The translations under genes were made by a program, and so were the position numbers. A stretch of 64,000 nucleotides of DNA, taken from positions 1-64,000 of the forward strand of contig NZ_SAIS01000013.1 in NCBI RefSeq assembly GCF_004360155.1, given 5' to 3'. Every line of letters begins with the position of its first letter. Within the stretch, counting starts at the first letter, position 1. Below the pieces are notes generated by a model, which was given only the letters and a program-made list of their open reading frames with translations, was not told where the DNA came from and ran no database searches. Source of the DNA: Paraglaciecola marina (GTDB lineage Bacteria; Pseudomonadota; Gammaproteobacteria; Enterobacterales; Alteromonadaceae). Shown here piece after piece: positions 1,104 through 37,245 of the stretch.

Positions 1104-2033
1104 GTGATAAATATTGATTTAAAGCTATTACATGTTCTAAACACCTTGTTTGAAGAACACAGTGTGACTTCTGCGGCTAGGCGTTTACATTTGAGTCAGT
1201 CAGCTGTTAGTAAGCATCTAGCGCGACTGCGAGATATATTTGAAGATCCATTATTTGAGCGTACAGGCCAAGGTTTAAAACCGACGCCCCGTGCCATCGA
1301 ATTATTACCTCAATTGCGACAACTGTTATCCCAATTTGATCAACTTACAAGGCCCAAAGCCTTTGAGCCTGAAGTGAGCGATCGTAGCTTTCGCATCGAT
1401 TTGTTGAATACAGCATATTCTTTGACCTTCCCGCATTTTATGCCCAACTTATTGTCTACAGCCCCAAATGTAAGATTACTTACGCAAACATGGGAGCCCC
1501 AAAGCCTCGATAAATTACTTAAGTGTGAGATAGATTTAGGCATTGCTTGTCGCGAATTGGACCAACGCTCGCCACTGCATATGCGCTTCATCCCTGATGA
1601 CTTAAATCAGACCACATTAATACGCGAACACTCTTTATGTTTAGTACGAGAGGACCACCCAGCACTACACAAAACTTGGGACTTAGAGAGTTTTTTACAA
1701 TACAGGCATATCCAAGTCATTATGGGCGGGTTAGATCAATGGTTGTTAGATGATGTGTTGACAGAGCAGAACATATATCGTGGTATTGCGATAGAAATGC
1801 CTGATTTCTACTGCGCAATGAGCCTATGTGAGCAAAGTGATTTAATGTTATGCGCCCCTGCTAGGCATGCCAACCAAATGGCGTCGCATTTTAAGCTACG
1901 CACCTTACCCATACCTATCGACTTTGAATCCGGGGCTTATGTATTACTATGGCATAAACATTTTGAACAAGATTCAGGGCATAAATGGTTGCGTGATTTA
2001 ATCATTAATAACGTTAACGAAGTTGAGAATTGA
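1104..2033 (+). CDS. LysR-family transcriptional regulator
   Basis: The 309-residue protein has the N-terminal winged HTH of LysR regulators (residues about 5-65, with SVTSAARRLHLSQSAVSKHL as recognition region) and a C-terminal periplasmic-binding-like effector domain (about 90-300). The start codon is GTG at 1104; an ATG at 1091 is out of frame. Ribosome binding upstream is weak. It lies 129 bp from the divergent Bcr/CflA transporter, so the shared intergenic region probably holds its operator and the pump is the likely target (inference from gene order). Effector unknown. Length is normal for the family. Confidence 0.9.
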   Translation: MINIDLKLLHVLNTLFEEHSVTSAARRLHLSQSAVSKHLARLRDIFEDPLFERTGQGLKPTPRAIELLPQLRQLLSQFDQLTRPKAFEPEVSDRSFRIDLLNTAYSLTFPHFMPNLLSTAPNVRLLTQTWEPQSLDKLLKCEIDLGIACRELDQRSPLHMRFIPDDLNQTTLIREHSLCLVREDHPALHKTWDLESFLQYRHIQVIMGGLDQWLLDDVLTEQNIYRGIAIEMPDFYCAMSLCEQSDLMLCAPARHANQMASHFKLRTLPIPIDFESGAYVLLWHKHFEQDSGHKWLRDLIINNVNEVEN

Positions 2034-2143
2034 GCGAAGCCAATTAATGGCCGCCGCTAGATGAGCTGACGGGCTAAAGCTTGACCTAGAGCTTCTGTAG
2101 GTTTCTTTTTTCTGTGGGCAAAGCCCATAAGCCAACAAAGCGG

Positions 2144-5100
2144 TTACACAATTGCAAACTCTCGTTCTAACTCACTGACCCCTAGCCCACTCTTCTTGGT
2201 CACCCGTAACTGAGTTGGAATGCGCTCTTTCATGGCTTCGATATGGCTAATCACGCCAATCATCTTGCCAGAGGCGTTAAGGTTATCTAGGGCATCTAAC
2301 GCAATATCTAAGGTCTCAGCATCTAAAGTGCCAAACCCTTCATCTAAAAACAGCGAGTCGATACTAGTTTTATGGCTCACTAAGTCAGACAAAGCCAGGG
2401 CCAACGCTAAGCTCACTAAAAAACTCTCGCCCCCCGATAAGGTTTTGGTGTCGCGCTCTACATCACCTTGCCATGTATCGAGTACCGTAAGCGCCAAACC
2501 TTGCTCTTCTTTGCGTTTAAGTAAGTAACGGCCGTGTATTCTGTCTAGCTGTTTGTTGGCTAAGTACACTAGGTTATCTAGGGTTAGTCCCTGAGCAAAG
2601 CGGCGAAATTTATCACCATTGGCCGAGCCAATTAAGCCGTGCAAGTAGCTCAATTGGTCGTACTCTTGTTGTTGCTCGGCGATTTGATCTAACAAGGTTT
2701 GTTGTCGCGCGGTTTCGTTTTCATCTTTTTGCAGTTGGCTGCTAATGCCACCTTTGCGCTCAACTAAGGCGTCTTTTTCAGTTTGTAGTTGCGCTAGTAA
2801 GAGTTGCACTTGTTGCGGCTGTGTTTGCTGCCAAGTACTTGCTTGGGGTTCATTATTGAGGGCATTGAGCTCGATTTTTGATTGTTCTAATAAGGTATTG
2901 GCCTTTTGCAATTGGCTGTCTAGGCTTTGCTTTTTAGTGAGTAAACCACTGCGTTGTTGCTCAGGTAATAGTGCATCTTCAAATTCACTTTGGCTCGTAA
3001 ATGGGCTGTTAGTCAGTAACTCATGCCACGTATCAGCTAGCTCTTTACGTAACTGCTGCAACTCAGTTTGCTGTTGTAATTTAACTTTTATGGCGGCTAA
3101 TAGGTCGCCATGTTGTCGCTCTATTTGCTTATGAGAATCAAGCGCAACTTGATAAGACTGCTCGGCTTGAGTTAATCGCCCATTGACGTTTTCTCTAGCA
3201 TTAAATACAGATTGTTCACCAAATAGTTGGTGTCGCTGTTGGTTGGCATTAGCTAACTCTTCTTTAAGGCGAACTTCTTCTGCTTGCATCGAACTTAATT
3301 GCTTACCCAGCTCAATCAAAGCTCGCTCAAATCCAGACAATTCAGCACTTTTAGCTACAAATTTATTATTTATCAGTTCATTTTGACGACTTTTATCTTG
3401 GTACACTTTTACATCAGACACTTTAACTTGTAGCCATTGTGCAAGTTCTTGCTCCGCTGGCAATGTGTAATTTAAAGCCTCAATGCTGCTCATTAATCTA
3501 GTTTGAGCCTGTTCTACGAGTGTATTTAATTTATTTAAATCTGTAGCGGTTTGTTGCCGATTTTGCTCAAGGGTTTGTTGACTTTGCTCAAGCAATTTTT
3601 GCTCACTATTGAGTTTATCTGCTTCTCTTTCGCTATGGCTAAGTGATTCTTTGCAGCTAAGTAATGCTTTATCAGCTTGTTTCAGGTTATTGATCTGAGT
3701 TGATAGCTTATCGAGCTGATTTTTGAGGTTTTGCTCGAAGCTTTGCAAACCTACTTGGTCACTAATGGCAAGGTCGCATTGCAGGGCCTGCTGGCATTGT
3801 TGCCAATGCGTATTGAGTTGCGCTTCTTGGGTGTCGTGTTCAGATAGTTGCTTTTGTAATTGCTGAATATTGAGGTGTAACAAGTCTAGTTTTTCACGTA
3901 CCCCTTTGCCCTCAGTTTCTAATTGACTAAGCAGAGCTTCGGCCTGTTTTTTTCTGGTAACCGTTTCAGGAATATCCAGCTGCATGTCAGCGGCCTTAGG
4001 GTGCGCCAAGGCACCACATAAAGGGCAAGGCTCGCCGCCTTTTAAGTGTCTTCTGTACTCGGCTAACTGCTCTTCTTGATTCACTAATAGCGTTAGGTCT
4101 TTACAGTGCTGAACTTGCTCTTGGTATGTTTGAAGTAACGAGGTGCGCTCGCTACCTAGCGAGTCTGCATTAGCTTGACTCGATAATAGCTTTTGCTGGT
4201 CGTCACGTTTAGCAGTTATTAGCTGTTGTGCCCGGCGCTGTATATCTTGAGCTTTAAGCAACTCAGGCCACACATTATTAAGCTGTATTTGTTGTTGCTC
4301 AGCTTCTGCCGCACTTAAGCTTTGGCTTAATGCTTGATACTCAGCTTGTTTAGCAGCAAAGGCCGCTTGTTGCTGAGTTACCCCTTCATTAAGGGTTTGC
4401 CATTTTTGGTTAATTAGCTTCTGGGCTTGGCTGTTCTCGCTAACCTGCTGTTCTAAGGTAACAGTTTGCTGTTGTAGCCTATGTGCGCTTTGTTGGTCTC
4501 GATTAATTTGTTCAAGGGCCGTAGTCCAGCCACTGAGATATTCAGCCACTTGGCTATCAGCTGCATGTTTATTTAAGTAATCTTGTACTTGGGTCTGCTG
4601 CTCGGTTAATTCGGCTAAGTCTTTACTTAGCCTCTCTTTATTACCTTCCGACACATGTTGTTGCTGCTGTGTCTCTGTAATGTGTAGCTGCTGTTTATTT
4701 AGGTTTTCTTGAAGGTTAGTAATTTGATTATCTAACGGTATCACTTGCTCGGTGATGAGCTTTTCTTGGGCAAGCTGATTATTCTTAGCCGTTTGCAAAG
4801 CGAGCGTCGCAGCTGCGAGTATTTCGCTTGCCGCTGATAACTGTTTTTGCAGACTTAACTCTGTTTTTTGATGCTCATTTACCTGTTCTTCGGTATTTTG
4901 GCACTGGCTTGTGATCTCAACTAGGCGCTGCCAATTAGGGCGTAGTCGTTCTGCTGGTTCACTTTTTTGCAATAAAGCCAAGTCATCTTGGGCATCTGCA
5001 ATTGCCTGCTTCGCTTGTAAACAAAGGGTGGTTGCATTGTCATGACCTTTTTGAGCGCTTTGCTGTTTGTCCCACCATTTAATATGATTTTCATGAATGT

Positions 5101-5818
5101 TAACTTGCTTTTCGACACTTTTTTGTTTGCTTTGCAATTCAGCAAGCTCGTTTTGCAATCCGAGTTTTTGCTCAGCGCTGAGTAAGGCGAAGGTATTGGC
5201 TCCCGCTTGTAATTCTTTTAAATGTTGTTTGGCTTGGCTGTAATGTTCGTGCACCTGAATAGAGATTTTACCGTATATCTCGGTACCTGTTAGCTCTTCT
5301 AAAAGCTCGGCTCGTTGCTTTTCGTCGGCATTCAAAAATGCGGCAAAGTCTCCTTGAGATAACATCATAGACTTAGTAAAGCGGCCAAAATCTAACCCTG
5401 TGATATTTTCGATTTCTTCACTTTTTTGGCGTATTTGCGTGGCTAAGACCTTACCCGTACTGACTTCGGCTAGCTCTGTATCTGCGGGCTGTAAATTGCC
5501 ATCTACCTTACCCCGAGAGCGGCGCATACTCCAAAACGCACGATAAGCCTTACCTTTTACTTCAAACTCCACCTCAGCCAAACATTCGGCTGTACCACGG
5601 GTCATGATCTCATTGGCTGAATTAGTAATTTGCCCAAGCCTTGGGGTTTGGTGATACAAGGCTAAACAAATGGCGTCAAGCAAGGTAGTTTTACCTGCTC
5701 CAGTGGGGCCGGTAATGGCAAACAGTCCATTATCAATAAAAGGGGACTGGGTAAAATCTACCTTCCACTCGCCCTTTAATGAGTTTAAATTTTTAAGACG
5801 TATGCTTAAAATTCTCAT
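2144..5818 (-). CDS. sbcC: Nuclease SbcCD subunit C (Rad50-like ATPase)
   Basis: SbcC is the SMC/Rad50-type ATPase of the SbcCD complex, which opens hairpins and processes DNA ends and palindromes at replication forks. The 1224-residue protein shows Walker A GPTGAGKT at 37-44, two long Gln/Glu/Leu-rich coiled coils, a zinc hook CPLC with cysteines at 598 and 601 in the exact middle, the ABC signature LSGGES at 1127-1132, and a Walker B/D-loop LFLDEGFGTLD shortly after. Its ATG overlaps the sbcD stop by 4 bp (ATGA), so translation is coupled. Length is somewhat above the E. coli protein (about 1050), due to the coiled coils. All catalytic elements are present. Confidence 0.97.
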   Translation of the reverse strand: MRILSIRLKNLNSLKGEWKVDFTQSPFIDNGLFAITGPTGAGKTTLLDAICLALYHQTPRLGQITNSANEIMTRGTAECLAEVEFEVKGKAYRAFWSMRRSRGKVDGNLQPADTELAEVSTGKVLATQIRQKSEEIENITGLDFGRFTKSMMLSQGDFAAFLNADEKQRAELLEELTGTEIYGKISIQVHEHYSQAKQHLKELQAGANTFALLSAEQKLGLQNELAELQSKQKSVEKQVNIHENHIKWWDKQQSAQKGHDNATTLCLQAKQAIADAQDDLALLQKSEPAERLRPNWQRLVEITSQCQNTEEQVNEHQKTELSLQKQLSAASEILAAATLALQTAKNNQLAQEKLITEQVIPLDNQITNLQENLNKQQLHITETQQQQHVSEGNKERLSKDLAELTEQQTQVQDYLNKHAADSQVAEYLSGWTTALEQINRDQQSAHRLQQQTVTLEQQVSENSQAQKLINQKWQTLNEGVTQQQAAFAAKQAEYQALSQSLSAAEAEQQQIQLNNVWPELLKAQDIQRRAQQLITAKRDDQQKLLSSQANADSLGSERTSLLQTYQEQVQHCKDLTLLVNQEEQLAEYRRHLKGGEPCPLCGALAHPKAADMQLDIPETVTRKKQAEALLSQLETEGKGVREKLDLLHLNIQQLQKQLSEHDTQEAQLNTHWQQCQQALQCDLAISDQVGLQSFEQNLKNQLDKLSTQINNLKQADKALLSCKESLSHSEREADKLNSEQKLLEQSQQTLEQNRQQTATDLNKLNTLVEQAQTRLMSSIEALNYTLPAEQELAQWLQVKVSDVKVYQDKSRQNELINNKFVAKSAELSGFERALIELGKQLSSMQAEEVRLKEELANANQQRHQLFGEQSVFNARENVNGRLTQAEQSYQVALDSHKQIERQHGDLLAAIKVKLQQQTELQQLRKELADTWHELLTNSPFTSQSEFEDALLPEQQRSGLLTKKQSLDSQLQKANTLLEQSKIELNALNNEPQASTWQQTQPQQVQLLLAQLQTEKDALVERKGGISSQLQKDENETARQQTLLDQIAEQQQEYDQLSYLHGLIGSANGDKFRRFAQGLTLDNLVYLANKQLDRIHGRYLLKRKEEQGLALTVLDTWQGDVERDTKTLSGGESFLVSLALALALSDLVSHKTSIDSLFLDEGFGTLDAETLDIALDALDNLNASGKMIGVISHIEAMKERIPTQLRVTKKSGLGVSELEREFAIV

Positions 5819-7053
5819 TGCTCACTCCCTTGCACTTGTACCTCTGAGAGTATTTGGTTAAACCTTAGACGTACCTTATTTAGGGTGGCTTGCTCGTGTT
5901 CTGTTTCGAAGGTTTCCATGGTTAAACGTTTTTCAAACACCTCTTCAGGGGCTAATTCGGCTAGGGTTTCGTTGCTCGCTTGATTCAAGAGTTGACGGCG
6001 CTGATTACGAGAACGGCGCAGTTGCAGCACCTCAACATTTAAGTCTGCAGTTAACCCTTGAACGCGCTCTTGCAGGTCAGACAAATAATCTTGGCTGTCT
6101 ACCTCAAGGCACAACCAACAAGTTAGCGAAGTTGCATTTGATTGCTCAAAAGCTTGCAACCTAGCAGTAATAGCAGCCAAGTCACCTTTAATGACTTCCA
6201 TAGGTTGAAAATTAGGAACCTCTACTGGCTGTAACTGGCTGACTGTCGCTCCAGAAAATTCCACCAGCATCACTTGTTTGGGCTTACCCAGCTCATCAAA
6301 GCTCAATGGTATTGGCGAGCCGCAATAACGAATATGTTCAGACTTAGCCACTATTTGTGGTTTATGAATATGCCCCAGTGCAATGTAATCTGCCGGCGGA
6401 AAGCCATCTGCAGCAAAGCCGTCGAGTGTGCCTATGTATATATCTCGCACACTTTCTGATTGCGTTACCCCTAATGCAGTTAAATGACCAGTGGCGATAA
6501 TAGGTATATCTCGCCCTGTCTGCAGCTTTTGAGCTAAGGCTAATTGATAGAGCTCTTGATAGTGCTGCTTAATGGCTTCGCCCAAGGCTTGGCGTTTTTG
6601 TAGGCCGGTTTCACCTGCCGTGCTTTGCAACACATCTCGGGCGCGAATAAAGGGGACAGCACATAAAATAGCCCCAGGTTGGCCTTGTTTATCGGGAATG
6701 CTAAACACTTGTTCACTGGCTGCGACCCCAGTACTTGCGACCACAAAGGTATTTAAGCAGGCTAATATTTGTTTAGATTCGTTTAGGGTAGATACCGAAT
6801 CATGATTCCCCCCCAGCACCACTAACACGCAATTGAGTTTTTGCATGTCGACCACAAATTGGTTGTACATTTCTCGAGCATAGCTAGGAGGGGTGCCAGT
6901 ATCAAAAATATCACCGGCTATGATGACGGCATCGATATGCTCTGTTGCAACTAGCTGCAATAACCATTCAATAAATTTTTGATGTTCGTCTTTACGGCTT
7001 TTGGTGAAGAAGCTTTGTCCTAGATGCCAGTCAGAGGTGTGCAGTATCTTCAT
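5815..7053 (-). CDS. sbcD: Nuclease SbcCD subunit D (Mre11-like nuclease)
   Basis: SbcD is the metallophosphoesterase subunit that, with SbcC, cuts DNA ends and hairpins using Mn2+. The chosen start gives MKILHTSDWHLGQ, the canonical N-terminus with metal ligands D8 and H10. GDIFDTG, GGNHDS and GHIHKP follow as the remaining phosphoesterase motifs. The open frame extends upstream to 7257, but the extra 68 residues look like non-protein sequence, and AAGG about 10 nt before 7053 supports the internal ATG. The 412 residues match the usual 400. First gene of the sbcDC operon, divergent from mtfA. Confidence 0.96.
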   Translation of the reverse strand: MKILHTSDWHLGQSFFTKSRKDEHQKFIEWLLQLVATEHIDAVIIAGDIFDTGTPPSYAREMYNQFVVDMQKLNCVLVVLGGNHDSVSTLNESKQILACLNTFVVASTGVAASEQVFSIPDKQGQPGAILCAVPFIRARDVLQSTAGETGLQKRQALGEAIKQHYQELYQLALAQKLQTGRDIPIIATGHLTALGVTQSESVRDIYIGTLDGFAADGFPPADYIALGHIHKPQIVAKSEHIRYCGSPIPLSFDELGKPKQVMLVEFSGATVSQLQPVEVPNFQPMEVIKGDLAAITARLQAFEQSNATSLTCWLCLEVDSQDYLSDLQERVQGLTADLNVEVLQLRRSRNQRRQLLNQASNETLAELAPEEVFEKRLTMETFETEHEQATLNKVRLRFNQILSEVQVQGSEQ

Positions 7054-16365: not shown

Positions 16366-16899
16366 CTAAAAATTATAGCTAGTATTAAAACCACTTTAAA
16401 TTAGCCTTTAGTTGTAAATCAAGCAGATGACAGCCTACCTATTATTTAAATATTTGAGCGCAATTCTGTTCACTAGATTATACATCTAAGCGGTTGTTAG
16501 GTACCCGCACTTAGGCGATTAAATAGAAAAAACTGAAAATAATGCCCCAATATGTGAAATGTGATTTAGCTACATATCCACTATTACACATCAATAACTA
16601 TCAACCTAGATAACGGCTGCTGCGTTATTCGACCTTCCAACATCTATACAAGGGCAGCTCAAAAGACCAAAGCAGTAGCAGAGTTGGTCGCTAATTTGGT
16701 GGCTGATGTGTTTAATTACCATGACTAAATCGTGTAGTGTTAAGTCTAACTTCCCACAATAAGCTCTTTTACCTCGCCAAAAGAGGGTGTTTGCTCACAT
16801 CCCAATGCCCAATTGAAATAATAACTTTATCGATATGGTCATTACATTCGTAACTCTATATTATTGCTTAAATAATAAGCTATTCAGGGAGTTGAATTT
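16366..16899. other. Gene-free stretch before the KAP NTPase; start of accessory region
   Basis: I see no gene in these 534 bases. Composition becomes AT-rich. It contains one copy of a 42-nt repeat at 16663-16704 that recurs after the NTPase gene. The NTPase start at 16900 has AGGGAG 9 nt upstream. It probably carries the NTPase promoter, but no clear -35/-10 pair stands out. Confidence 0.6.
16663..16704 (+). repeat. Left copy of 42/48-nt direct repeat bracketing the NTPase gene
   Basis: This copy begins AAGACCAAAGCAGTAGCAG and ends GCTAATTTGGTGGCT. The copy at 21158-21205 is the same apart from a duplicated GTGGCA and a few substitutions. Both are in the same orientation about 4.5 kb apart and enclose only the NTPase gene. 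Confidence 0.75.
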
Positions 16900-19800
16900 A
16901 TGACGGGCGACAAGCAAAACACTTTACCTAACGACTCTACACATAACAATAAGTCAAATAGTAATAGCAACAGTTATATTCAATACATGGTTTTACCCAT
17001 CAAGAGCAACCAAGCTGATAAAGACGTATTTGTCGGTAGAGACAGATTTAAAACCAAGCTCAAACAGTCAATTTCAAATGCGCTTTCAAAAAAGAGTCGT
17101 GGTGGTAGCTTCTTGGTGGGTGGATATAGAGGTGTCGGCAAAACCCATTTGGTTAACACTGTTGTGAAAGAACTTATTAAAGGTAAAAAATGGTTTGCCT
17201 GCATACGGCTAATGTTTAGAAAATTTTTGTACAAATGTAAGTCTTCACATGATTTAAACAGTGATAGTTTGTACCGCACCTTAGAAATAAATGACCTTCG
17301 TTTAGATATAGGCGTAGATTCAGATTTGTCTACTCGAGATATTCTTTGTGACTTAGTAGAAATTATGTACTCACTTAGCCTAAGTTCATATCGAAGAATT
17401 AAAGTCTGGTCGCTACTCCTCTCGACTGTCGTGTTTATCGCGCTTACTGGTTTTACACTCTATCAAGACCAAGCTTTTGAATTAAAAAACTTCTTTGCAA
17501 CTGACCTTTCAGGTTTATTTCAAACTTACAAAGCGAATTTGATTTTCTACCTAACATGCGTTGCCCTAGTATATGTAAGCGCCAAGTTCGTTTATAAAAA
17601 ACTATGCTCTTGTCATGGGATGATTGAAGAACTAGCCCTTGCGTCTAGATTTAGTAGAGAGTGGGACAATACATCAGGGGCCGCTTTTCCAAGCGGTCTA
17701 AGCGCTGTATTCCAGAGCCGACAAAAATTATCACAAGAGCCCATTTCAGCAAGAAGAATTCAACAAAGTCTAATCACCTATATTAACAAACAACGAGAAA
17801 AGGGTATTAGCTACATCATTACCTTTGATGAAGTTGATAAAATTAACCCCTCCACCTCAGAAAGCTACACAACTAACAATAAATCTCGAAAACAAAAAGT
17901 GGATGAGCTTTTAGGAGGGCTCAAGGCACTGATGAACAATTCCCATTGCGTATTTATCATAGTGGCAGGCAGAGAGATCGTTGATGCTTATTATTCTGAA
18001 TCAGGATACACAAGCGTGCTATACGAGAGTGTATTTGATGATATTTTCTATATCCCTACCCTACTGACAGATTGGTCTGATGGCCAATCTGATTGCTATT
18101 CGTCTATGGTCAGACAATATGTCAACACAGTGATATTTGGTTCTGGCTCAGATAACCTTGATAATCTATTAGAAAACGCACTTACGTCAGGTGATGATTT
18201 CAAAGACCTTAATGACAAAGAGCAACAAAAAATCACCCTTGATTACCTCTTTTATTTTGAAATCTTTATTAAGTATTTGACCTTACATTCGTGGGGCAAT
18301 TTTAAACGCCTCAAACTCATGCTTAACGATCACATTGAATACTATAACGATCATATGGAAACTAGAGTGAATACCCGTGGAATACCTAAAGTTTTCGCAC
18401 CAATACCAAACCAAAAAGTATTAATTTTTACCCCCTCAGATATATGCCGCATGTTTGTCAGTGCACGATTGTACGCAATGTTTGACGTTAATATAGGCCG
18501 CTCAACATCAAAAACCGATGATAAAGCAGCTGTCTCAGGGCTTATCACTATTCTTGATACTTTTCGATTTCATAGTCGAGGGTTTTCACGGGCAATGATA
18601 GACCGCACTATTGCGGGAATAGATGTTCACGCTGAGTCATCTCTTTCTTACATTGCCGATGATTACGTGCATTCAACATTTCAATCAATGATCAGGCAAA
18701 CCTCAAACAATATTTACCCCTATCGCTATTACCTGTCTTCCGATATGGAATTTAGTTACTTTGCAAAAATACTGGGAGCTAAGTCGTCAAGTTTTGAGTT
18801 TGCCCTTGACTCTGCCGAACCCGTAAGGGAATTCTATTTACGAGAAGCCCAGCGGCAAGCTCCCGATGGCTCTTTAAATAGCTTTCTAGCAAGTGCCAAA
18901 CTTCAAGCCATACTGGGCGATATTTTTGTATGCGAACATCGCTACGATTTAGCATCGAGCAGCTATAGCAATACAATCTATTTATTGAAAAAAGTGTTAA
19001 GAACTGACAACGAAGAAGCATGGCGAGAAAACGGCGGTATTTCCCTTGAAGCACAATACATGCTGATCCGCAGTTTACTGAAAAAAGGTCGGTTAGAAGA
19101 AGAAAGAGAAAATACCACCAAGGCAATCTCCCTTTACCACGAAGCTCAAAAAACAGCGCAAATTATCTTTGAAGTAAGCAGTAATGCAATTGGCTACAAA
19201 ACAACAAACAAGTACCTAAGCGACGGCTTGCCCAACTTTAATTCAGAAGAAAATACTCATCACTTCGTTAATCAGTCAATCATTGCCAAATTAGCAATAA
19301 ACTTTGCCAATATTAAATCAGGTAACTTCACCAGAATTGACGATTACCAAAGACACTATTGCGTAGGCGGTGGGGATCAGGGCGGAACTGAGCATCGTCA
19401 TGTGTTTTTATCGAAATACCTAACTACCGCCTATTTTAGTGGTATGTATACTGAGATAGAAGGTAACGAAAGCCTATCGCGTCTCATTAATAATGTTCTA
19501 AAAGGAAGCCTTGATTCATCTGATGTAAGAAGCACGGCTAGTTCAATTCTATATATTTTGGGACAATCTCAGTTTTCTTCTTTAGCCCATAATTTAAAAA
19601 AGTTAGCTGGTATGAAAGAGACTCAAAACTTGGCACCTTCTAAGTTTTATCGCCAATGGTTTGTGTTAGTAGAATATATGTTGAAGTTAGAGGGCGAGTT
19701 ATCGAAGTTTTCTAGTGGGCCCAAAATAGAATTAAGTGATCACGAAAGTCATCCTCTTACATCCGAGGAAGAACACAACATCAATTTACTAGCTAATAGC

Positions 19801-21090
19801 TTTATAAACATATTTAAAGCCGCAGATAAATCAAAGAAAGCCGGACGTTACGCCGAAGCAGCCCATCAATACACCGCTATTCTACTTAATTGGATTGCGT
19901 TGCTAGAAATCATACCTTGGAAGCATTTGGAGCCAAACAATAAAGACTATCAAGCTTTAACGGAAAGATTAAAACCTGGGGCCTTTTCCAGATTAACTTC
20001 AAGGTTAAAGAGCAGAACTGACTGGCTGAATGATATCATCGGATGTGCTCAAAATTGTGTGGAAAAAGCAGACAAGTCCTCGAATGTAGCACTGCGACAA
20101 GGCGTATTATCTCGATATAAAGCGTTAAATAAAAATAACGATGACAAACTTCATACTGATGACAAACTTCATACTGATGACAAACTTCATACCAATACAT
20201 TTAGAGCTTATGATGTGCTCGAGTCATTAAGTAAAGATGAAAAATATGAAACACATGAACAATATTCAACTATGGTGTGGTGTCGTTCGAATATTAGTAA
20301 CTATTTACTGATTTTTGGCATATGGGAAAACTACTGCAGATACTCAATTGGTGGTTGGATTTCATCGACACCAGAGATACCTTTTAACTTCAATATCATT
20401 CCCGTACCAATAGGTAACCTACCCAGAGTCCATGCCCTATACCGCTGGTTGAGTGCAAGGTTTGATATGCATAAATTAAGAGAAGAGATGCTTAAGTTGT
20501 CAGAACCGTCTGAAACTGAAAAACACACTATATTTGACCTCATTGCAAACATTGTTGAACAATTATCTGAAGCACTAGATGATTACAAAAAAGCCTTTCG
20601 AAGTGATGATCCTGATAGCTTCCCATCAAAAACACACATCTATTTCAATCTAGCCGAATTAATCGATTACGTTAACACACAGAGTAAATTAATAAGCTCT
20701 ACTGGCGAACCCATCGACTTCATTGACGGAGCATTAAAAAAGTTAAAAGATAGAGCGAAAGAGAAAGTAGAGAAATTTACACCCGGAACAAATAATAGCT
20801 CCTCTTATGAAGAGGATACCTTACCCACTATGTACCTAGACAAAAAATACGTTGAACTACATCTAAACAAATTTCGCTATGACCTACTTGAAATTGATAA
20901 TATTCAATCGCTGTCGTACCAACGAAAGTTGCGCCATAAGTACTTTTTGTATGATGACTTCGATGACCCGTTCTACATCGCCGAATGGGCTCATTTACGT
21001 ATGATGTCGAGTTCCTGCCGTTTATTGACTGTAGACAAAGAACAGCCAACAAACGCATCAGGTGAAGCAGAAGACAGTGCGAGTGAATGA
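16900..21090 (+). CDS. Large KAP-type membrane P-loop NTPase (candidate phage-defence protein)
   Basis: The 1396-residue protein has Walker A GGYRGVGKT at 74-82, two transmembrane helices at about 170-188 and 213-232, then Walker B ISYIITFDEVDK at 303-314 and a sensor-like VFIIVAGRE at 351-359. Two TM helices inserted between Walker A and Walker B is the hallmark of KAP NTPases, the family of plasmid F PifA, which blocks phage T7. Residues from about 640 onward are long, helical and repeat-like (TPR-style SSSYSNTIYLLKK, AAHQYTAILLNW), a likely sensing or scaffold part. A perfect 18-bp tandem repeat gives three DDKLHT units near 1080-1098. AGGGAG 9 nt before the ATG supports the start. No partner gene is adjacent. 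Family assignment comes from topology; the defence role is inference. Confidence 0.85.
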   Translation: MTGDKQNTLPNDSTHNNKSNSNSNSYIQYMVLPIKSNQADKDVFVGRDRFKTKLKQSISNALSKKSRGGSFLVGGYRGVGKTHLVNTVVKELIKGKKWFACIRLMFRKFLYKCKSSHDLNSDSLYRTLEINDLRLDIGVDSDLSTRDILCDLVEIMYSLSLSSYRRIKVWSLLLSTVVFIALTGFTLYQDQAFELKNFFATDLSGLFQTYKANLIFYLTCVALVYVSAKFVYKKLCSCHGMIEELALASRFSREWDNTSGAAFPSGLSAVFQSRQKLSQEPISARRIQQSLITYINKQREKGISYIITFDEVDKINPSTSESYTTNNKSRKQKVDELLGGLKALMNNSHCVFIIVAGREIVDAYYSESGYTSVLYESVFDDIFYIPTLLTDWSDGQSDCYSSMVRQYVNTVIFGSGSDNLDNLLENALTSGDDFKDLNDKEQQKITLDYLFYFEIFIKYLTLHSWGNFKRLKLMLNDHIEYYNDHMETRVNTRGIPKVFAPIPNQKVLIFTPSDICRMFVSARLYAMFDVNIGRSTSKTDDKAAVSGLITILDTFRFHSRGFSRAMIDRTIAGIDVHAESSLSYIADDYVHSTFQSMIRQTSNNIYPYRYYLSSDMEFSYFAKILGAKSSSFEFALDSAEPVREFYLREAQRQAPDGSLNSFLASAKLQAILGDIFVCEHRYDLASSSYSNTIYLLKKVLRTDNEEAWRENGGISLEAQYMLIRSLLKKGRLEEERENTTKAISLYHEAQKTAQIIFEVSSNAIGYKTTNKYLSDGLPNFNSEENTHHFVNQSIIAKLAINFANIKSGNFTRIDDYQRHYCVGGGDQGGTEHRHVFLSKYLTTAYFSGMYTEIEGNESLSRLINNVLKGSLDSSDVRSTASSILYILGQSQFSSLAHNLKKLAGMKETQNLAPSKFYRQWFVLVEYMLKLEGELSKFSSGPKIELSDHESHPLTSEEEHNINLLANSFINIFKAADKSKKAGRYAEAAHQYTAILLNWIALLEIIPWKHLEPNNKDYQALTERLKPGAFSRLTSRLKSRTDWLNDIIGCAQNCVEKADKSSNVALRQGVLSRYKALNKNNDDKLHTDDKLHTDDKLHTNTFRAYDVLESLSKDEKYETHEQYSTMVWCRSNISNYLLIFGIWENYCRYSIGGWISSTPEIPFNFNIIPVPIGNLPRVHALYRWLSARFDMHKLREEMLKLSEPSETEKHTIFDLIANIVEQLSEALDDYKKAFRSDDPDSFPSKTHIYFNLAELIDYVNTQSKLISSTGEPIDFIDGALKKLKDRAKEKVEKFTPGTNNSSSYEEDTLPTMYLDKKYVELHLNKFRYDLLEIDNIQSLSYQRKLRHKYFLYDDFDDPFYIAEWAHLRMMSSSCRLLTVDKEQPTNASGEAEDSASE
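20140..20193 (+). repeat. Three 18-bp tandem repeats inside the NTPase gene
   Basis: GATGACAAACTTCATACT occurs three times in a row (last copy ends ACC), adding DDKLHT units in frame. The copies are almost identical at DNA level, so they are recent and may vary in number between strains. Confidence 0.95.
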
Positions 21091-21157: not shown

Positions 21158-21219
21158 AAGACCAAGGCAGTGGCAGTGGCAGAACTGGGCGCTAATTTGG
21201 TGGCTCAGCCATTGCTTTT
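21158..21219 (+). repeat. Right copy of NTPase-flanking repeat, fused to an FGG-type repeat core
   Basis: Bases 21158-21205 match the 16663-16704 repeat. Its 3' end runs into the 24-nt core TTTGGTGGCTCAGCCATTGC followed by TTTT (21196-21219), which recurs at 31885 and 33571. The core contains the small inverted repeat TGGC-tca-GCCA. Confidence 0.75.
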
Positions 21220-22547: not shown

Positions 22548-23444
22548 CTACATTTTAAATCTGGCTGATTTTGGTGATCCTTTACCTTTTAATACATCGT
22601 TGATTTGCGTTACGTCATCCATTATCTCTTGTCCCACAGCTCCCCAGAAATTCGGATTGTTAAGTGTGTTGGTACGAATATCTTGTGGTAAAAAACGGCT
22701 CATTTCTCGTTCAAAATCTAACTTGGTTGTTTTGTCTTTCATTACCAGTTGGGAATGTTGCTCTGTGTTTTCGATATATGATTGAATAGACTTTTCTCTG
22801 ACTTCTAGCTTTCGACGGATAAGCGCGGGATCTTGCATAAGGCCCCGTTGCTTTAACCACATGATATCCCATACATCTCTCGGTTTTATTCTGCGCTGAC
22901 GAAAAGCAAATGCGACCATTTTGTCAGCAAGAATTTCAGACAAACTTTGAACAGGGATAGGTAAACTTGCTATCGGTGATTGGATCCCGTAATGATCGAT
23001 AGCAGGATGAAACTGACGGTCAAATGAGGGTAAAGCACATACATCGATATGCATTTTTTGCGATGGAAGATCGGGTCTATCTGCATGTTTTTCTATGGCA
23101 ATTTTCCACGTAGAAGTATCGCTAGTAGTTAGCTTTGGCTCTCTAACATCTACCTGTAATCCATATTTATTATGTAGATGCAGTTGTAATTGCTCTGCCA
23201 TACCTTCGAATTGACTTGCTTTAAAATTAAGTCCCGCAGTGAAGTCAAGATCCTCAGACAAGCGACTTGAGTTGTAGCACACCCTTAAAGATGTACCACC
23301 GATAAATGTTAATTGATGCAAAATACCTTCAGATTGCAAAACCTGCAGGATGTCATGGTGCAATATTTCTTTTTCAACGACATCATCCAGCCCCAAAAGT
23401 TTATCGTCTCTACGTAATGCATTTTGAACAATCTTATCCAACAT
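22548..23444 (-). CDS. AbiEii-type nucleotidyltransferase toxin (type IV TA)
   Basis: AbiEii toxins are nucleotidyltransferases of the DNA polymerase beta fold that block growth, and as part of AbiE they abort phage infection; some modify tRNA ends. The 298-residue protein has the NTase motif GGTSLR at 49-54 followed by SEDLDF at 63-68 (catalytic D65, D67), a third strand with IDV near 155, and the helical C-terminal part with RIKPRDVWDIMWL. GAGGAA 8 nt upstream supports ATG 23444. It overlaps the antitoxin gene by 11 bp and comes second, as in other abiE operons. Confidence 0.93.
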   Translation of the reverse strand: MLDKIVQNALRRDDKLLGLDDVVEKEILHHDILQVLQSEGILHQLTFIGGTSLRVCYNSSRLSEDLDFTAGLNFKASQFEGMAEQLQLHLHNKYGLQVDVREPKLTTSDTSTWKIAIEKHADRPDLPSQKMHIDVCALPSFDRQFHPAIDHYGIQSPIASLPIPVQSLSEILADKMVAFAFRQRRIKPRDVWDIMWLKQRGLMQDPALIRRKLEVREKSIQSYIENTEQHSQLVMKDKTTKLDFEREMSRFLPQDIRTNTLNNPNFWGAVGQEIMDDVTQINDVLKGKGSPKSARFKM

Positions 23445-23976
23445 CGTCTATTTCCTCGATCATATTGATGTTTCTTCCAACACGTTTAAGATCAGTTATT
23501 GCCCGCTCTTTATTAGCTCGAAACATACCGCTCTGTTCATCAAAATACACTCCATCTTCCAACAAGCTAATATCTCGATTGGTATGGGTAAATTCAATTG
23601 TTCCGTAATCAGTTATAAAATGACCACTACGCCCTTTGGTCATTACGCTCAAATACCCCATGGGAATTTGAGATATCACACCTAAATGACTCAATTGCGA
23701 TTCGAGACTCACATAATTGAAAGACTTCCATCTAAGCTGTTTTGCAATTATGTATATTGCACCTTTAGGATTAGGAGGTAGATGAGCATTAACATAAATA
23801 CCTTTGGTAATACGTTTAAGGGTATCGTTGCTAACACTCTTGGTAAGAATGGCGCGAAAAGCTTTGTTATCCTCTCGATTGAGCATCATAGACAGATCAC
23901 TCGCGGTAAATATTCCGCAATGGCCATTATTGATAGCCTGAATGGTTAACTTATTTAACTCTCTAAATATACTCAT
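23434..23976 (-). CDS. AbiEi-type antitoxin / transcriptional repressor
   Basis: AbiEi antitoxins neutralise AbiEii without direct contact and repress their own promoter through an N-terminal winged helix. The 180-residue product has that N-terminal HTH region (GIFTASDLSMMLNREDNKAFRA, then LKRITKGIYV) and a C-terminal antitoxin domain (KSFNYVSLESQLSHLGVISQIPMG). The frame opens at 24012, but MSIFRELNKL at 23976 is the more family-like start. The region just upstream contains CCATAATGG and a possible TATATT box, where autoregulation could take place (weak evidence). Confidence 0.9.
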   Translation of the reverse strand: MSIFRELNKLTIQAINNGHCGIFTASDLSMMLNREDNKAFRAILTKSVSNDTLKRITKGIYVNAHLPPNPKGAIYIIAKQLRWKSFNYVSLESQLSHLGVISQIPMGYLSVMTKGRSGHFITDYGTIEFTHTNRDISLLEDGVYFDEQSGMFRANKERAITDLKRVGRNINMIEEIDDVG

Positions 23977-24122
23977 CAGACTTACAGCTCTATCTATACA
24001 ATATACCCCCATAATGGCAGTTTTTTGTTAACTTATCAACTTTGCATCTTACTCAAATTTTATAGACGGGAAAGGCAATGGTGACGCCGGCAGAAATGGG
24101 GATTAAAGGACTAACAGTTCAG

Positions 24123-28549: not shown

Positions 28550-29340
28550 TTGCTTTACCTTTTGTTAAATTTACTTTTTTTAAAATATTAGCATATGTAA
28601 AAATAACTAAATGTGTAAAAACCTTGAAAGCCTGTCCTACACAAATAGTACTGCCACTTTTAAAACCATTCAGGTCCAAGCTAGCCAGCTATAAGCATCA
28701 GACTAGGCTTGCACTGTCGAGATTCGTTTCCGTTTTCTCAACGAGCTTTGCATAATTTATGGGCGTAGTTATTGATTCTGATTTTAGGTTATTGAAGAGC
28801 ACGCTTCGCACCATCGTCCATGATGGTTTTTGACTTGAATCCTTTCAAGCCAGATACTTTTCTACGTGGTAAGTAAAAGCATGTGCACAGCACACTGGCA
28901 TCCATGCATTTTTTCAAGCCTCATCCATGAGTCCCGACTTACTTTTCTTCTACAGCTAAGAAAAGTAAGCTAAAGAAGCCGCTCGCTACTAAAGTTCTTA
29001 ACCGCAAAAAATGACTTATTCTTGAGTCGTTACGAATGTATCCCTTCAAGCTCCACTCAAATGGCGTCCGTGCCATTTGCCCCAATAACAAGCCATGTTT
29101 AGCTGAAACTTTAAATGCGGGTAAAGCAGTAACGGAGCCACCAGTACGGTTATCGGCGAAGCCGATGGTTGTGATTTCAACTGCTCTGCCCTGCAGGTTA
29201 TTTAAGGAATATGACACCTATATCCTGCGATTTGAAAAGGCTACTCCCCCTTATATTTTCAAAGGGCTAGTAATACCAAATGACTGACCAACTCATCGTA
29301 CAAATTGAAAATTGGAATGCCTTTAACCCATGACAATAGA
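28550..29340. other. Gene-free stretch of about 800 bp with a long inverted repeat
   Basis: No convincing gene. Short frames at 28537, 28939 and 29036 lack ribosome sites and protein-like composition. The sequence around 28800-29000 contains a perfect 11-bp inverted repeat at 28939-28968, and its flanks look like the dispersed intergenic sequences often seen in Alteromonadales. It separates the YHYH unit from the restriction-modification unit and may be the remnant of an insertion. Confidence 0.6.
28939..28968. repeat. Perfect inverted repeat in gene-free stretch
   Basis: TTACTTTTCTT and AAGAAAAGTAA are exact reverse complements separated by 8 nt. It could form an RNA hairpin, but there is no T-run after it that would make it a clear terminator. 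Confidence 0.85.
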
Positions 29341-29357
29341 TATCAAATATGGCAAAA

Positions 29358-29377
29358 TACTGTATGCGAATACAGCA
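29358..29377 (+). promoter_or_regulatory. LexA (SOS) box upstream of the C5-methyltransferase
   Basis: TACTGTATGCGAATACAGCA contains CTGT-N8-ACAG at 29360-29375, with the inner AT/AT flanks conserved. It matches the gammaproteobacterial LexA consensus (TACTGTATATATATACAGTA) at 15 of 20 positions, with full identity in the two half-site cores. It lies 36 bp before the ATG at 29413, where bound LexA would repress the gene. Confidence 0.75.
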
Positions 29378-29412
29378 TGTTAAACAGTGATATTTATAAT
29401 AAGGACTACACT

Positions 29413-30540
29413 ATGCCTAAAAAACTATTTTCGTTTTTTTCTGGGAGTGGATTTTTAGATCTTGGCTTCGAAAGAAGTGGTTTCGATGTGGTATATGTAA
29501 ACGAATATCATCAACCGTTTTTGGATGCGTATCAATATTCAAGAGAGCAAATGAATATAGAGCCACCTTATTATGGCTTTGATAATACGAGCATTGAAGA
29601 AATAGCTAAAGCCAAGGATTTCTTGAATCGGTTAAGTGGGAATGTAGAAGAACAAAAAGCACAAGGCCATATCACTGGATTCGTTGGAGGCCCGCCATGT
29701 CCGGATTTTTCTGTTGGTGGTAAAAACAAAGGGAAAGAAGGAGAAAATGGTAAACTCACAAGCACCTACTGCGATGTAATATGTAAGGTAAAGCCAGACT
29801 TTTTTCTATTCGAAAATGTTAAAGGTCTTTGGCGCACGGCGCGTCACCGAGAGTTTTATGATCAAATTAGAGCTAAATACAAACGTGCTGGGTACGTAAT
29901 GTTTGATAGGCTTACAAATAGTTTAGAATATGGTGCACCGCAAGATCGAGATCGAATTATACTCTTAGGTTTTCACAAATCATTGCTTCAAAGTACTGAA
30001 ATTAGAAGTGAAAAAAAATTAGAGTCCGCATTAAATTGGAATCAGCATATCCAGTTCGACCTAGAGCAGGTACTACAGCATCCTTGGCCTGAAAAAAGTG
30101 TTTATGAGGAAAATAATGAAACGCCACCACCAGATGGCGTACCACTTGAATTAACTGTCGAATATTGGTTTCAAAGGAACGACGTCAGAAATCATCCAAA
30201 TGCCAATCATCATTTTGTTCCTAGAGCGGCACTACCAAAATTTCAAACCATTTCTGAAGGCGATGACTCAAAAAAATCCTCTAAAAGGCTTCATAGATGG
30301 AGATACTCACCAACAGCAGCTTATGGCAATAATGAAGTGCATATTCATCCTTATCTGCCAAGAAGAATAAGTGCGTCTGAAGCACTCGCAATTCAATCCT
30401 TGCCGGCAGAGTTTGCACTGCCAGCAAATATGACTTTGAGCAATATGTTCAAAACTATTGGCAATGGAGTTCCGTATCTAATGGCTAGTGGACTCGCAAG
30501 AACTATAGAAGATTTTCTGGATGAAAACTGTCAGAATTAG
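29413..30540 (+). CDS. DNA (cytosine-5) methyltransferase of a type II R-M system
   Basis: The start is ATG 29413, with AAGGAC 6 nt upstream; it gives MPKKLFSFFSGSGFLDLGF, the typical SAM-binding motif I. The 375-residue enzyme has motif IV GGPPCPDFS (catalytic C96), motif VI ENV at 134-136, motif VIII QDRDRI from 177, and motif X IGNGVPYLMA near the end. It methylates C5 of cytosine in a sequence set by its target recognition domain (about residues 210-320), which I cannot read. It is convergent with the probable endonuclease at 30556, 15 bp away. A LexA box lies in its promoter region. Confidence 0.94.
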   Translation: MPKKLFSFFSGSGFLDLGFERSGFDVVYVNEYHQPFLDAYQYSREQMNIEPPYYGFDNTSIEEIAKAKDFLNRLSGNVEEQKAQGHITGFVGGPPCPDFSVGGKNKGKEGENGKLTSTYCDVICKVKPDFFLFENVKGLWRTARHREFYDQIRAKYKRAGYVMFDRLTNSLEYGAPQDRDRIILLGFHKSLLQSTEIRSEKKLESALNWNQHIQFDLEQVLQHPWPEKSVYEENNETPPPDGVPLELTVEYWFQRNDVRNHPNANHHFVPRAALPKFQTISEGDDSKKSSKRLHRWRYSPTAAYGNNEVHIHPYLPRRISASEALAIQSLPAEFALPANMTLSNMFKTIGNGVPYLMASGLARTIEDFLDENCQN

Positions 30541-30555
30541 CTCCTCAAGTTTAAA

Positions 30556-31635
30556 TTAGGCTTTTGTAGGCTCTAAAAAAGTATGGAGGAACTTTATGTT
30601 ATCAATGCCTTGGATTTTTCTTCGACTCAGAAGATACATATCTTCAATTGATGAATAAGAAAGATATTTAATATCCATATCTTGAAACTGTGGATCAAGA
30701 GACTTTCGAACAACTTGTGATCTAATTTCATCTGGAGCCGCAATTATATAAGTCATATGCGCCAGTTCAGGCGCTTCGGTTTTAAAAGATTTCATGCGTG
30801 TTAGACCTGAGGTAACACCTGTACTGTGCTCTATCTCTATAACCGCAGGAATTTTTTTACCATCTTTGGATAACCAGATTAAATCAATTAGGTCGCCAGC
30901 AGTTGCTGCCTTTCGATATCCTTGTAATGCTGCAGCGTCAACTAATTTTTTTACAACACTATTCATTTCAATAAAGGATTGTCCATTATATTTTATTCCT
31001 TGATCATTTCTCGCAACCCATGAATGCAAGCCAAATGATTCTGCTATCTTGATTAGCATTAATTGAATTTGAGCATGCCTTCGATCTATCTCTACTTTTG
31101 CTTTATCTCTGTTAGTTCCTTCAGTTAGATGAAGGGCGTCGAAATGTAGCTCTCTATCAACTTGAGTGACAACTATCTCTGACTTTTCTAACTCTGTAAT
31201 TACACCTTTTTTATGCGGTTCATCTGGAAGATAAATCAGGTGTTTATGTCCAGTTTTAACTTTTGTATTTTCTCCCATTTTTTCGAGTCGTCCTGGATAG
31301 CAAAGGTAAAAAAACTCTGTGTGTAACAGTAACGCTTCTAGCGCCGATCTTGAGTTGTAACTGGCACCAAAGACTCGATCGACATTTATAGGTCGCCCGG
31401 GTTCTATTGCGTTGGCCATTCTCCACAGAGCTTGAACAGAAATGGTGACAATCTTTGCATTCTCATAACTCCCTTTTAAAGGGTTCCATCTTTTAATAGT
31501 TACTGGACCTTCACCTCTTTTAACATCAACCACTTTTATTTTTGTATGCGTTTTTTCATGAGGATAATCATAAGCTACTGATTTATCTAATCCATCGATC
31601 GCTTTTGCCAAGTTAGAAGCTGTAACTTTTTCCAT
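30556..31635 (-). CDS. Probable type II restriction endonuclease partner of the methyltransferase
   Basis: The 359-residue protein lies tail-to-tail with the C5-methyltransferase, a classic R-M arrangement. Its C-terminal third has AGDLIDLIWLSKDG then IPAVIEIEHSTG: D251 followed by E267-x-E269, a fit to the PD-(D/E)xK nuclease core in its ExE variant (as in BamHI), and the phrase EIEHSTGVTSGLTRM recurs in restriction enzymes that I have seen next to C5-methylases. The N-terminal half (1-150) may be the DNA recognition part. Cognate site unknown. Start is ATG 31635. The assignment rests on context plus the catalytic motif. Confidence 0.78.
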   Translation of the reverse strand: MEKVTASNLAKAIDGLDKSVAYDYPHEKTHTKIKVVDVKRGEGPVTIKRWNPLKGSYENAKIVTISVQALWRMANAIEPGRPINVDRVFGASYNSRSALEALLLHTEFFYLCYPGRLEKMGENTKVKTGHKHLIYLPDEPHKKGVITELEKSEIVVTQVDRELHFDALHLTEGTNRDKAKVEIDRRHAQIQLMLIKIAESFGLHSWVARNDQGIKYNGQSFIEMNSVVKKLVDAAALQGYRKAATAGDLIDLIWLSKDGKKIPAVIEIEHSTGVTSGLTRMKSFKTEAPELAHMTYIIAAPDEIRSQVVRKSLDPQFQDMDIKYLSYSSIEDMYLLSRRKIQGIDNIKFLHTFLEPTKA

Positions 31636-31908: not shown

Positions 31909-32048
31909 GACCATCCTCGCATGTATGTTCGCCAATTATCAGGTGAATTTAGTGGGGCTATTGGCAAGCGACCAACATGGATGTTAGAAGGTAGAATAAC
32001 GCAGGACGCAGTTATCGAGATGCTTAATCGGCAAAGCCATCCCCCTTT

Positions 32049-32127: not shown

Positions 32128-32586
32128 ATGACAATGTTAAACGTACAATCATTACCAAATGCTGAAGAGGTTGCGCTGGCAAAGTTGAGTAGCCAAGCGC
32201 TTTCTGCTGTGATGGAAACCAGTGGCGAGGTGCAACAATTTAATGTGGTAGGAAAGGATGGAGAAAATCATCCACTTACACTTCCAGCCAGCGCTGTTAA
32301 ACTTATGATTGAGTTACTAACACAACTTGGCCAAGGCAATAGTGTAAACATTACGCCGATCCACGCAGAACTGACCACACAAGAAGCCGCTGACATTCTA
32401 AATATGTCGCGACCGACTTTGATCAAGTTATTGGATGGCAGTGACATCCCTTATTCAAGAAAAGGGAATCGTCGGAAAGTAGCCTTTGTGGATGTGATGG
32501 CATTTAAACAAAATATGGACAATAAACGTCTTGCGTCTTTAGATGAGTTAACTGCTCTCGATCAGGAACTCGAATTAGGATATTAA
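32128..32586 (+). CDS. HTH (excisionase/MerR-like) antitoxin of PIN toxin
   Basis: The 152-residue protein carries a C-terminal excisionase-type winged HTH (LTTQEAADILNMSRPTLIKLLDGSDIPYSRKGNRRKVAFVDVMAFK is the core, residues about 85-130; only its start is LTTQEAADILNMSRPTLIKL). The N-terminal 80 residues probably dimerise and bind the toxin. It precedes the PIN gene by 7 bp, as do the antitoxins of this family. The repeats at 32049-32100 are its probable autoregulatory site. Starts at 32128 and 32134 are both possible; AAAGA is better placed for the second. Confidence 0.86.
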   Translation: MTMLNVQSLPNAEEVALAKLSSQALSAVMETSGEVQQFNVVGKDGENHPLTLPASAVKLMIELLTQLGQGNSVNITPIHAELTTQEAADILNMSRPTLIKLLDGSDIPYSRKGNRRKVAFVDVMAFKQNMDNKRLASLDELTALDQELELGY

Positions 32587-32593
32587 AATTTAA

Positions 32594-33163
32594 ATGGCAA
32601 CTTACACCGTTATTCTGGATGCGTGTGTTATGTACCCAGCACCATTACGCAGTTATTTACTTTATCTTGCACAAACTGGATTGTTTAGAGCTCGCTGGAC
32701 AGCACAAATTCACGATGAATGGATAAGAAACTTAGTGAAAAATGTCCCAACTTTAGACAAGAGTAAACTAGAAAGAACTCGTCAACTTATGGACGCTCAT
32801 ATGCCTGATTGTTTAGTCGAAGGTTATGAGTTTTTGGTACAAAGCATTGAGTTGCCAGATGTAGATGATAGACACGTTGTTGCGGCTGCAATTAAAGGGC
32901 AGGCTGAAGGTATTATCACCTTCAATTTAAAAGACTTTCCTGATGATAAGTTGACTGATTATGAATTGTCAGCGATACACCCAGATGCATTTTTGGCTGA
33001 TATGTTTGAGCTGAGTCCCAGTGCAGCAATTCAAGCAGCACAAAAACAACGGGCAGCACTTCAAAATCCCCCCATGACAGCTGATGATTATCTTGACTGT
33101 TTATTACGTCAAAAGTTACCTGTATTTGTTTCAAAATTAAGAGCTTTTGAGAAAATAATTTAA
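32594..33163 (+). CDS. PIN-domain ribonuclease toxin (VapC/PIN_3 type)
   Basis: PIN toxins are Mg2+-dependent endoribonucleases. The 189-residue protein has D9 in VILDACVMYP, E42 in IHDEWIRN, D92 in VDDRHVVAAA and D114 in FNLKDFP, the four acidic active-site residues in the right order. The C-terminal 60 residues extend the PIN fold and are found in the longer PIN_3 branch. It starts 7 bp after the antitoxin stop, so both are on one transcript. Target RNA unknown. Confidence 0.88.
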   Translation: MATYTVILDACVMYPAPLRSYLLYLAQTGLFRARWTAQIHDEWIRNLVKNVPTLDKSKLERTRQLMDAHMPDCLVEGYEFLVQSIELPDVDDRHVVAAAIKGQAEGIITFNLKDFPDDKLTDYELSAIHPDAFLADMFELSPSAAIQAAQKQRAALQNPPMTADDYLDCLLRQKLPVFVSKLRAFEKII

Positions 33164-37018: not shown

Positions 37019-37020
37019 AC

Positions 37021-37245
37021 TTAGATTGCCATATCTTCATCATCAAATGGCAAGCCGTTACTAGCAACATGTTGGTTGTAACGCTCTATTTTGCTTTTGT
37101 TAACCTCTTGCCATTTTCTAGCAATCTCGGCTCGCAATGTACGTTCAAGGGATTGGCTCATATTAATACCGAGCTTTTTAGCATCATCAGATAATGATTT
37201 CGCAATGTACAAATTTACTCTGGATTTATCTTGCGTAGTTTGCAT
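37021..37245 (-). CDS. ccdA: CcdA-type antitoxin
   Basis: The 74-residue protein has an N-terminal ribbon-helix-helix (SRVNLYIAKSLSDDAKKLGINMSQSLERTLR is about residues 8-38) that binds the operon promoter, and a disordered C-terminal tail (RYNQHVASNGLPFDDEDMAI) that wraps and neutralises CcdB. The RYN-x-x-VxxxGLPFDD end is diagnostic for CcdA. It is first in the operon, 2 bp before ccdB. On a chromosome it acts as a stabiliser of neighbouring DNA or against plasmid addiction. Confidence 0.92.
   Translation of the reverse strand: MQTTQDKSRVNLYIAKSLSDDAKKLGINMSQSLERTLRAEIARKWQEVNKSKIERYNQHVASNGLPFDDEDMAI

Follow-up and report, generated by a model that had tools for sequence, protein, structure and literature searches.

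At positions 16900 to 21090 of the window, meaning the whole 64,000-nucleotide (nt) stretch of contig NZ_SAIS01000013.1 of Paraglaciecola marina that was analysed, lies a gene for a putative membrane nucleoside triphosphatase (NTPase) of 1396 amino acids (aa). The gene is present as a single copy in its own genome, has AGGGAG just 5' of its ATG, and sits between two direct repeats. The features of the gene and its flanks are as follows, given with the residue numbers of the encoded protein, P0001.

16663-16704, + strand: left direct repeat, with a 33-nt core at 16672-16704, 42 nt when extended by eye
16900-21090, + strand: KAP-like membrane NTPase gene, 1396 aa, an intact open reading frame (ORF) with an ATG start
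17122-17145, + strand: Walker A motif GYRGVGKT, residues 75-82, with G75, R77, G78, G80 and K81 invariant in 10 of 10 alignment rows
17404-17595, + strand: two transmembrane (TM) helices predicted by hydropathy scan within the interval separating the Walker motifs, at residues 169-187 and 214-232
17824-17841, + strand: Walker B motif FDEVDK, residues 309-314, with F, D, E, D and K invariant in 10 of 10 rows
18889-19179, + strand: weak TPR-like helical stretch, approximately residues 664-760 (family profile against solved structures, sub-threshold)
20140-20192, + strand: 18-nt tandem repeat, 2.9 copies, encoding DDKLHT repeats (repeat scan)
20938-20967, + strand: C-terminal motif KYFLYDDFDD, residues 1347-1356, of a pattern found in 9 of 9 complete family members
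21158-21205, + strand: right direct repeat, with a 33-nt core at 21173-21205, 48 nt by eye

The motif and hydropathy scans bear out the claim of an earlier note on this DNA that two TM helices separate Walker A from Walker B, and no TM helices were predicted elsewhere in the 1396-aa protein by the hydropathy scan. The same note had called the C-terminal 700 residues repeat-like, which our searches do not bear out: self-BLASTP of residues 661-1396 found no match off the diagonal, and 0 matches were obtained with a strict TPR pattern. The best match of the TPR-like stretch, to an engineered TPR chain, stays below threshold in the comparison of the family profile with solved structures (E 0.052), and TPR similarity in family members is also weak in Pfam scans. 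Besides the DDKLHT repeat, the gene holds a second, weak repeat of 21 nt in 2.0 copies. Structure prediction, suggested by the earlier note as a check, was run with AlphaFold (two-sequence input each); the models have mean predicted local distance difference test (pLDDT) scores of 34.2 and 42.2, and the C-terminal half is all-helical only at this low confidence.

Relatives of the protein are rare and scattered across assemblies. A pattern scan with the single sequence over an 84,980-species collection, which reaches only near relatives, confirmed one, at locus L002, with 49% identity. Whole-genome searches, whose counts all include the window's own genome, found the protein in 1 of 22 genomes of the genus, that one being the window's own, and gave matches in 6 of 395 genomes at family level, 7 of 394 at order level, 5 of 369 at class level and 2 of 398 at phylum level. 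One of the six family-level matches is a fragment that was dropped (in genome G045, where only 43 residues match and a stop is contained), and six of the seven order-level matches were dropped as covering only model positions 375-488, the TPR-like part. The resulting family comprises 11 proteins including that of the window, nine of them complete (1258-2336 aa). Of the remaining two, L031 runs off its contig and was excluded from the C-terminal and bracketing counts, and L033 (genome G926, 555 aa) was retained as a short or broken relative and excluded from the motif and TM counts. A literature search did not name the family among the matches listed.

Across the 10-row family alignment, which does not include the later-found L132, the Walker A motif, F-D-E-x-D-K and some later residues are invariant, and much of the C-terminal half is poorly aligned. 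Predicted TM helices are confined to the interval between Walker A and Walker B in all 10 members scanned, in numbers ranging from 0 to 11: two each in P0001, P0002, L031 and L032, one each in P0003 and P0004, five in P0006, 10 in L132, 11 in P0005 and none in L030. These counts come from simple hydropathy and could each be wrong by one helix or more. In all nine complete members, a [YFH]-D-D-[FYH]-x-D type motif starts 33-50 residues before the end; its pattern was composed only after the alignment had been inspected.

We then considered to which branch of the P-loop ATPases the NTPase domain belongs. The hidden Markov model search with KAP_NTPase (PF07693), which the earlier note had proposed as a check of its KAP-type assignment, gave 14.9 bits for P0001, below the Pfam gathering score of 20. 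P0002 (14.4 bits) and P0003 (14.7 bits) also fall short of this cut-off, and no KAP match at E ≤ 0.1 was listed in the Pfam scan for P0004, P0005, P0006 or L030. Profile-profile comparison nevertheless links the family to KAP. A profile of eight family rows matched eight KAP proteins, the best eight of 27 listed places, from related genomes, with a probability of 96.6 over a 251-column span running from Walker A beyond Walker B, and matched 11 AAA_16 regulators (12 loci chosen from 30, less L101, whose reading frame could not be recovered) with 93.5 over 83 columns at the Walker A P-loop. When the comparison was limited to the Walker B half, starting 40 residues upstream of Walker B, the KAP set scored 92.5 against 0.6 for AAA_16, 23.0 and 9.3 for two further sets of AAA_16 hits (ctl2 and ctl3, made of nine and nine others), and 27.7 for a classical AAA control set consisting of FtsH, ClpX, Lon and RuvB of E. 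coli K-12. All 11 single AAA_16 sequences scored ≤1.2 in this half, and the reversed full family profile scored 0.2 against KAP. Some KAP proteins also carry TM segments in the interval between their Walker motifs, as this protein is predicted to do, and the profile comparison hints at a similar element after Walker B. The family is set apart from KAP by a Walker B of the form D-E-V/L/I-D-K in 10 of 10 rows, whose last position, K, is occupied by R in 7 of 8 KAP rows (D-x-L-D-R), by a TM count of 0-11, and by the great length of its C-terminal arm, which carries the D-D motif.

Several results weigh against KAP kinship, and some of them speak for an alternative in which the NTPase stands on the ORC/Cdc6-AAA_16-STAND side of the P-loop ATPases and acquired the TM helices between its Walker motifs independently of KAP. 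AAA (PF00004) passes its cut-off of 21.2 in P0001 with 26.5 bits (residues 291-359, the Walker B half) and also in P0002 (28.9) and P0003 (26.0), making three of seven members, while P0004 and L030 fail it. AAA_16 (PF13191) reaches 27.2 bits in P0001, below its gathering score of 32.6, and is the top Pfam match in all seven members scanned, two of which pass the cut-off (P0002 38.7, L030 34.4). With the TM insert excised, the lead of KAP narrows to 96.3 against 94.1, 94.1 and 91.1, and 94.1 for the FtsH/ClpX/Lon/RuvB set, and a single AAA_16 protein, L119, scores 95.1 over 171 columns. The KAP signal in the Walker B half also comes from few sequences: only two of eight single KAP sequences match it well (L076 82.6, L080 62.3), and the two TM-bearing KAP sequences together score 0.9; for the four closest family members alone, KAP (89.7) and AAA_16 (90.0) tie. 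Solved-chain profile matches, mostly at Walker A, are to ORC4 (best E 0.001) and to 8hr7, an "Archaeal ATPase" which we take to be RdrA (E 0.0054); an FVGR box precedes Walker A, and L030 does without the TM insert altogether. The FtsH/ClpX/Lon/RuvB control results and the PF00004 match weaken the KAP reading and strengthen this AAA+ alternative, which we still consider unlikely, given the scores of every AAA+ set and every single AAA_16 sequence from Walker B onward. The KAP-type assignment of the earlier note thus survives in part: judging by the profile comparisons, the protein is probably a remote relative of KAP, though not a member by the Pfam definition. The same genome also encodes a KAP NTPase above the Pfam cut-off, L076 (G000:C1:546469-547392, 153 bits), which matches the PADLOC candidate PDC-S20 (E 6.1e-96).

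The 42/48-nt direct repeat described by the earlier note is real. Its 33-nt cores are 88% identical, the extension by eye to 42 and 48 nt includes one 6-nt indel, and the local score of 46 exceeds the maximum of 32 from 300 shuffles of the flanks; a 28-nt core with ≤3 mismatches occurs at these two sites only in the 4.6-Mb genome. The gene is, as had been claimed, the sole content between the copies, the other ORFs of at least 60 aa listed there being antisense and inside it. What did not hold is that the repeats are the gene's own, as each copy is similar to intergenic repeats that are dispersed in the genus. The right copy continues as a dispersed repeat to approximately 21258, which is found with 86% identity in G014 and 84% in G002, neither of which gave a protein match in the whole-genome search.

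Flanking DNA gave only short matches within the genus, and the uninterrupted dispersed copy in G002 was used in place of an orthologous empty site. Joining the two flanks across the gene yields an alignment to this copy of 120 columns with one 1-nt gap and a score of 117; the right copy preceded by its natural upstream sequence scores 97, and the left alone 52; with random partners, 0 of 1000 on the left (maximum 97) and 0 of 1000 on the right (maximum 108) reached 117. G002 was picked for its right-flank match, which leaves only the left half as an independent test, and there the left part by itself reaches 52, where 60 shuffles reach at most 33, and its match stops precisely where the left repeat ends. 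Since joining the flanks restores a contiguous repeat copy, the gene looks inserted, with the flanking repeats as halves of one dispersed intergenic repeat. A tblastx comparison detected no genes in common next to the insert, its only match being at window 28.8-29.2 kb, and no inverted repeats of at least 20 nt at the ends of the unit were among the matches listed.

The flanking repeats could instead be two independent truncated copies of dispersed repeats, in which case they would be uninformative on insertion. The resemblance of the right copy on its own to those in G014 and G002 would fit this, as would half-sites of the dispersed repeat at 31885 and 33571 of the window and the G014 copy, which scores 91 with and without the join. 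The left flank also contains a second dispersed repeat (16606-16647), with another match at window 31977-32019 and matches in 9 of the 21 other genomes of the genus, several of which have more than one, the sole match in G009 lying inside a GGDEF gene. Both flanking repeats moreover overlap terminator-like hairpins (16683-16707 and 21198-21214; seven sites were found, against a mean of 4.0 and standard deviation of 2.2 in shuffles), and the dispersed repeat may also function as a terminator. Against this alternative, which is rather improbable in our view, stand the left-flank match to G002 and the complementarity of the two copies, which are halves joining at the 33-nt core.

Other repeats are present nearby. 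A 27-nt intergenic repeat with a TTATCATGCCTGTCCTGTTA core occurs in four copies (74-100%) at window 21229, 22515, 24123 and 25259, and eight copies (66-100%) of a 32-nt repeat family with the same TTATCATGCCTGTCCTGTTA core lie within 12 kb of one another in G014 (L066). An integron-like reading, prompted by the copies at 22515, 24123 and 25259, was dropped, without an attC test.

A second instance of bracketing is seen at L002, where the gene lies between a tRNA-Leu(CAA) gene (6677-6763, - strand) and an exact 22-nt copy of the tRNA 3' end (1977-1998); the longest match in 50 shuffles was 12 nt. By eye, the displaced copy shows further resemblance to the anticodon region, and a terminator-like hairpin follows it in the direction of the tRNA. 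Apart from the NTPase gene and an antisense ORF contained in that gene, no ORF of at least 90 aa is listed in this 4.7-kb unit (1977-6763). No integrase gene was found within the window unit or the L002 unit, and integration would presumably depend on a helper enzyme. Clear bracketing repeats are present at only two of the seven loci with both sides readable; L012 (18 nt 89%, 21 nt 81%) and L015 (20 nt 80%) have only weak pairs, which were not set against chance, and none were listed for L013, L030 and L032. A 77-nt terminal repeat at L014 was rejected because it consists of two contig ends and is probably an assembly artefact. The restored site in the window, together with the tRNA-Leu gene and its displaced 3' end at L002, supports the interpretation of the gene as a single-gene inserted unit.

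The setting of the gene in a defence island, also noted earlier, was confirmed by the following genes in the window.

22548-24012, strand not given: AbiEii/AbiEi (window protein scan)
29305-31635, convergent genes: type II DNA methyltransferase and restriction enzyme models (PADLOC and Pfam scans)
32128-33163, strand not given: HTH/PIN_3 pair (Pfam scan)
36710-37018, strand not given: CcdB-like gene (Pfam CcdB)

The restriction gene in 29305-31635 matches the PADLOC type II restriction enzyme model (E 3.2e-87) and no Pfam family at E ≤ 0.01, and a small ORF adjoining the CcdB-like gene (region 36710-37245) presumably resembles CcdA. Comparison of the locus among relatives, a further check named in the earlier note, did not find this neighbourhood beside the relatives examined. 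Their neighbours, mostly named by eye, look mostly ordinary: lpt/pepA/valS, an alkZ-like gene and adenosine deaminase, GGDEF, a PALP enzyme, and the odh/lpd, eno, mnmA-hflD and rlmB-rnr regions. Adenosine deaminase and methyltransferase matches among the flanking proteins are to shared domains, the PIN-type neighbour of L032 is below the Pfam cut-off, and an IS200-type transposase adjoins L030. For L014 and L132 the flank is too short for a neighbourhood reading. At L033 (2716-9401), the short relative adjoins a serine/threonine kinase-like ORF, with a WD40-type ORF near (both by eye).

Among known defence systems, Tmn is described as a KAP NTPase that has two TM domains and acts against T2, P1 and further phages by a mechanism called unexplored (PMC11846954). 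The likeness, a KAP-like domain with two TM segments, is one of description; the phage restriction by Tmn shows that such an arrangement can serve in phage defence. PifA of plasmid F is likewise KAP-type, in that the PADLOC PifA model catches KAP proteins, and has been suggested to act at the membrane by triggering depolarisation, though the same source asks whether immunity was what it evolved for (PMC8594841). Neither this protein nor four relatives match the PifA model, which has 720 positions. QatA of qatABCD is a KAP NTPase with a C-terminal domain of unknown function (PMC12424860). It differs in that no QatA model match was obtained here, and no Qat partner was among the matches listed for the window proteins scanned with PADLOC. 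The weak match to 8hr7, presumed above to be RdrA, invites comparison with RADAR. RdrA shares an AAA+ core with a long helical C-terminal domain, supposed by its authors to be the sensor (PMC9994260). P0001 has no PADLOC match to RdrA, RdrB was not among the matches listed for the 17 other window proteins, and the adenosine deaminase beside L012 is a 350-aa A_deaminase.

The gene thus has intact NTPase motifs, a predicted TM insert, a lone-gene setting, patchy occurrence and signs of insertion. Our favoured explanation, which we advance tentatively, is a one-gene accessory unit carrying a divergent KAP-like inner-membrane NTPase that would act at the membrane against phage. A unit of approximately 4.5 kb would have been inserted into a copy of the dispersed intergenic repeat, and a hairpin of helices within the NTPase domain itself would hold the protein in the inner membrane. 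The long helical C-terminal arm might detect signs of infection or of stress in the envelope, the NTPase might switch and oligomerise on ATP, and the membrane hairpin might deliver the output, for example a leakage that stops the cell or the phage, comparable to the suggestion made for PifA. Membrane topology, oligomerisation, sensing and the anti-phage effect are all steps that we infer. An anti-phage role, for which the earlier note had proposed the gene as an undescribed candidate, is plausible, if short of probable, and draws on the kinship to KAP, the patchiness, the inserted state and one neighbourhood, that of the window.

The protein could instead be a membrane-anchored signalling or stress NTPase without a phage role, spreading for another benefit and coincidentally placed in a defence island, a reading that we advance just as tentatively as the favoured one. 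The ordinary neighbours of the relatives favour it: no convincing defence gene was found among the 10 flanking proteins of L002, L012, L013, L015, L030 and L032. So do the collections of mobile elements, as no match was found in 72,556 plasmid records (queries P0001, P0004, P0005 and L030), in 50,697 phage records (query P0001) or in viral contigs. These results count against the membrane-defence explanation, as do the low pLDDT scores, the lack of any TM helix in L030 where the other nine of 10 members have 1-11, and the scarcity of clear bracketing. PADLOC models gave no match at E ≤ 1 for P0001 and none at E ≤ 0.1 for four relatives, although the PifA, QatA and PDC-S20 models catch three of three KAP controls, and QatA itself was not essential for the defence of its own system in the assays cited in PMC12424860. 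What a role without phage would leave less well explained is the patchy occurrence, the inserted state at two loci, the probable relatedness to KAP proteins that serve in defence, and the AbiE, restriction-modification and toxin-antitoxin neighbours in the window.

A bolder extension of the favoured explanation, quite unlikely in full, is that recombinase-less one-gene units of 4-5 kb are integrated by helpers at tRNA ends or dispersed repeats, with the NTPase as an entire sensor-to-membrane immune system, the TM insert (0-11 helices) freely exchanged and the conserved C-terminal D-D tail serving as a fixed output or docking point. If the unit is protective, it would represent a single-protein membrane defence missed by the PADLOC models tried, because its kinship lies under the thresholds of the profiles. 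The tRNA-Leu case at L002, with the gene as lone cargo, would be a minimal island in need of a helper. The variable TM insert within one NTPase family, finally, offers a natural series for how a P-loop domain tolerates or uses internal membrane helices.

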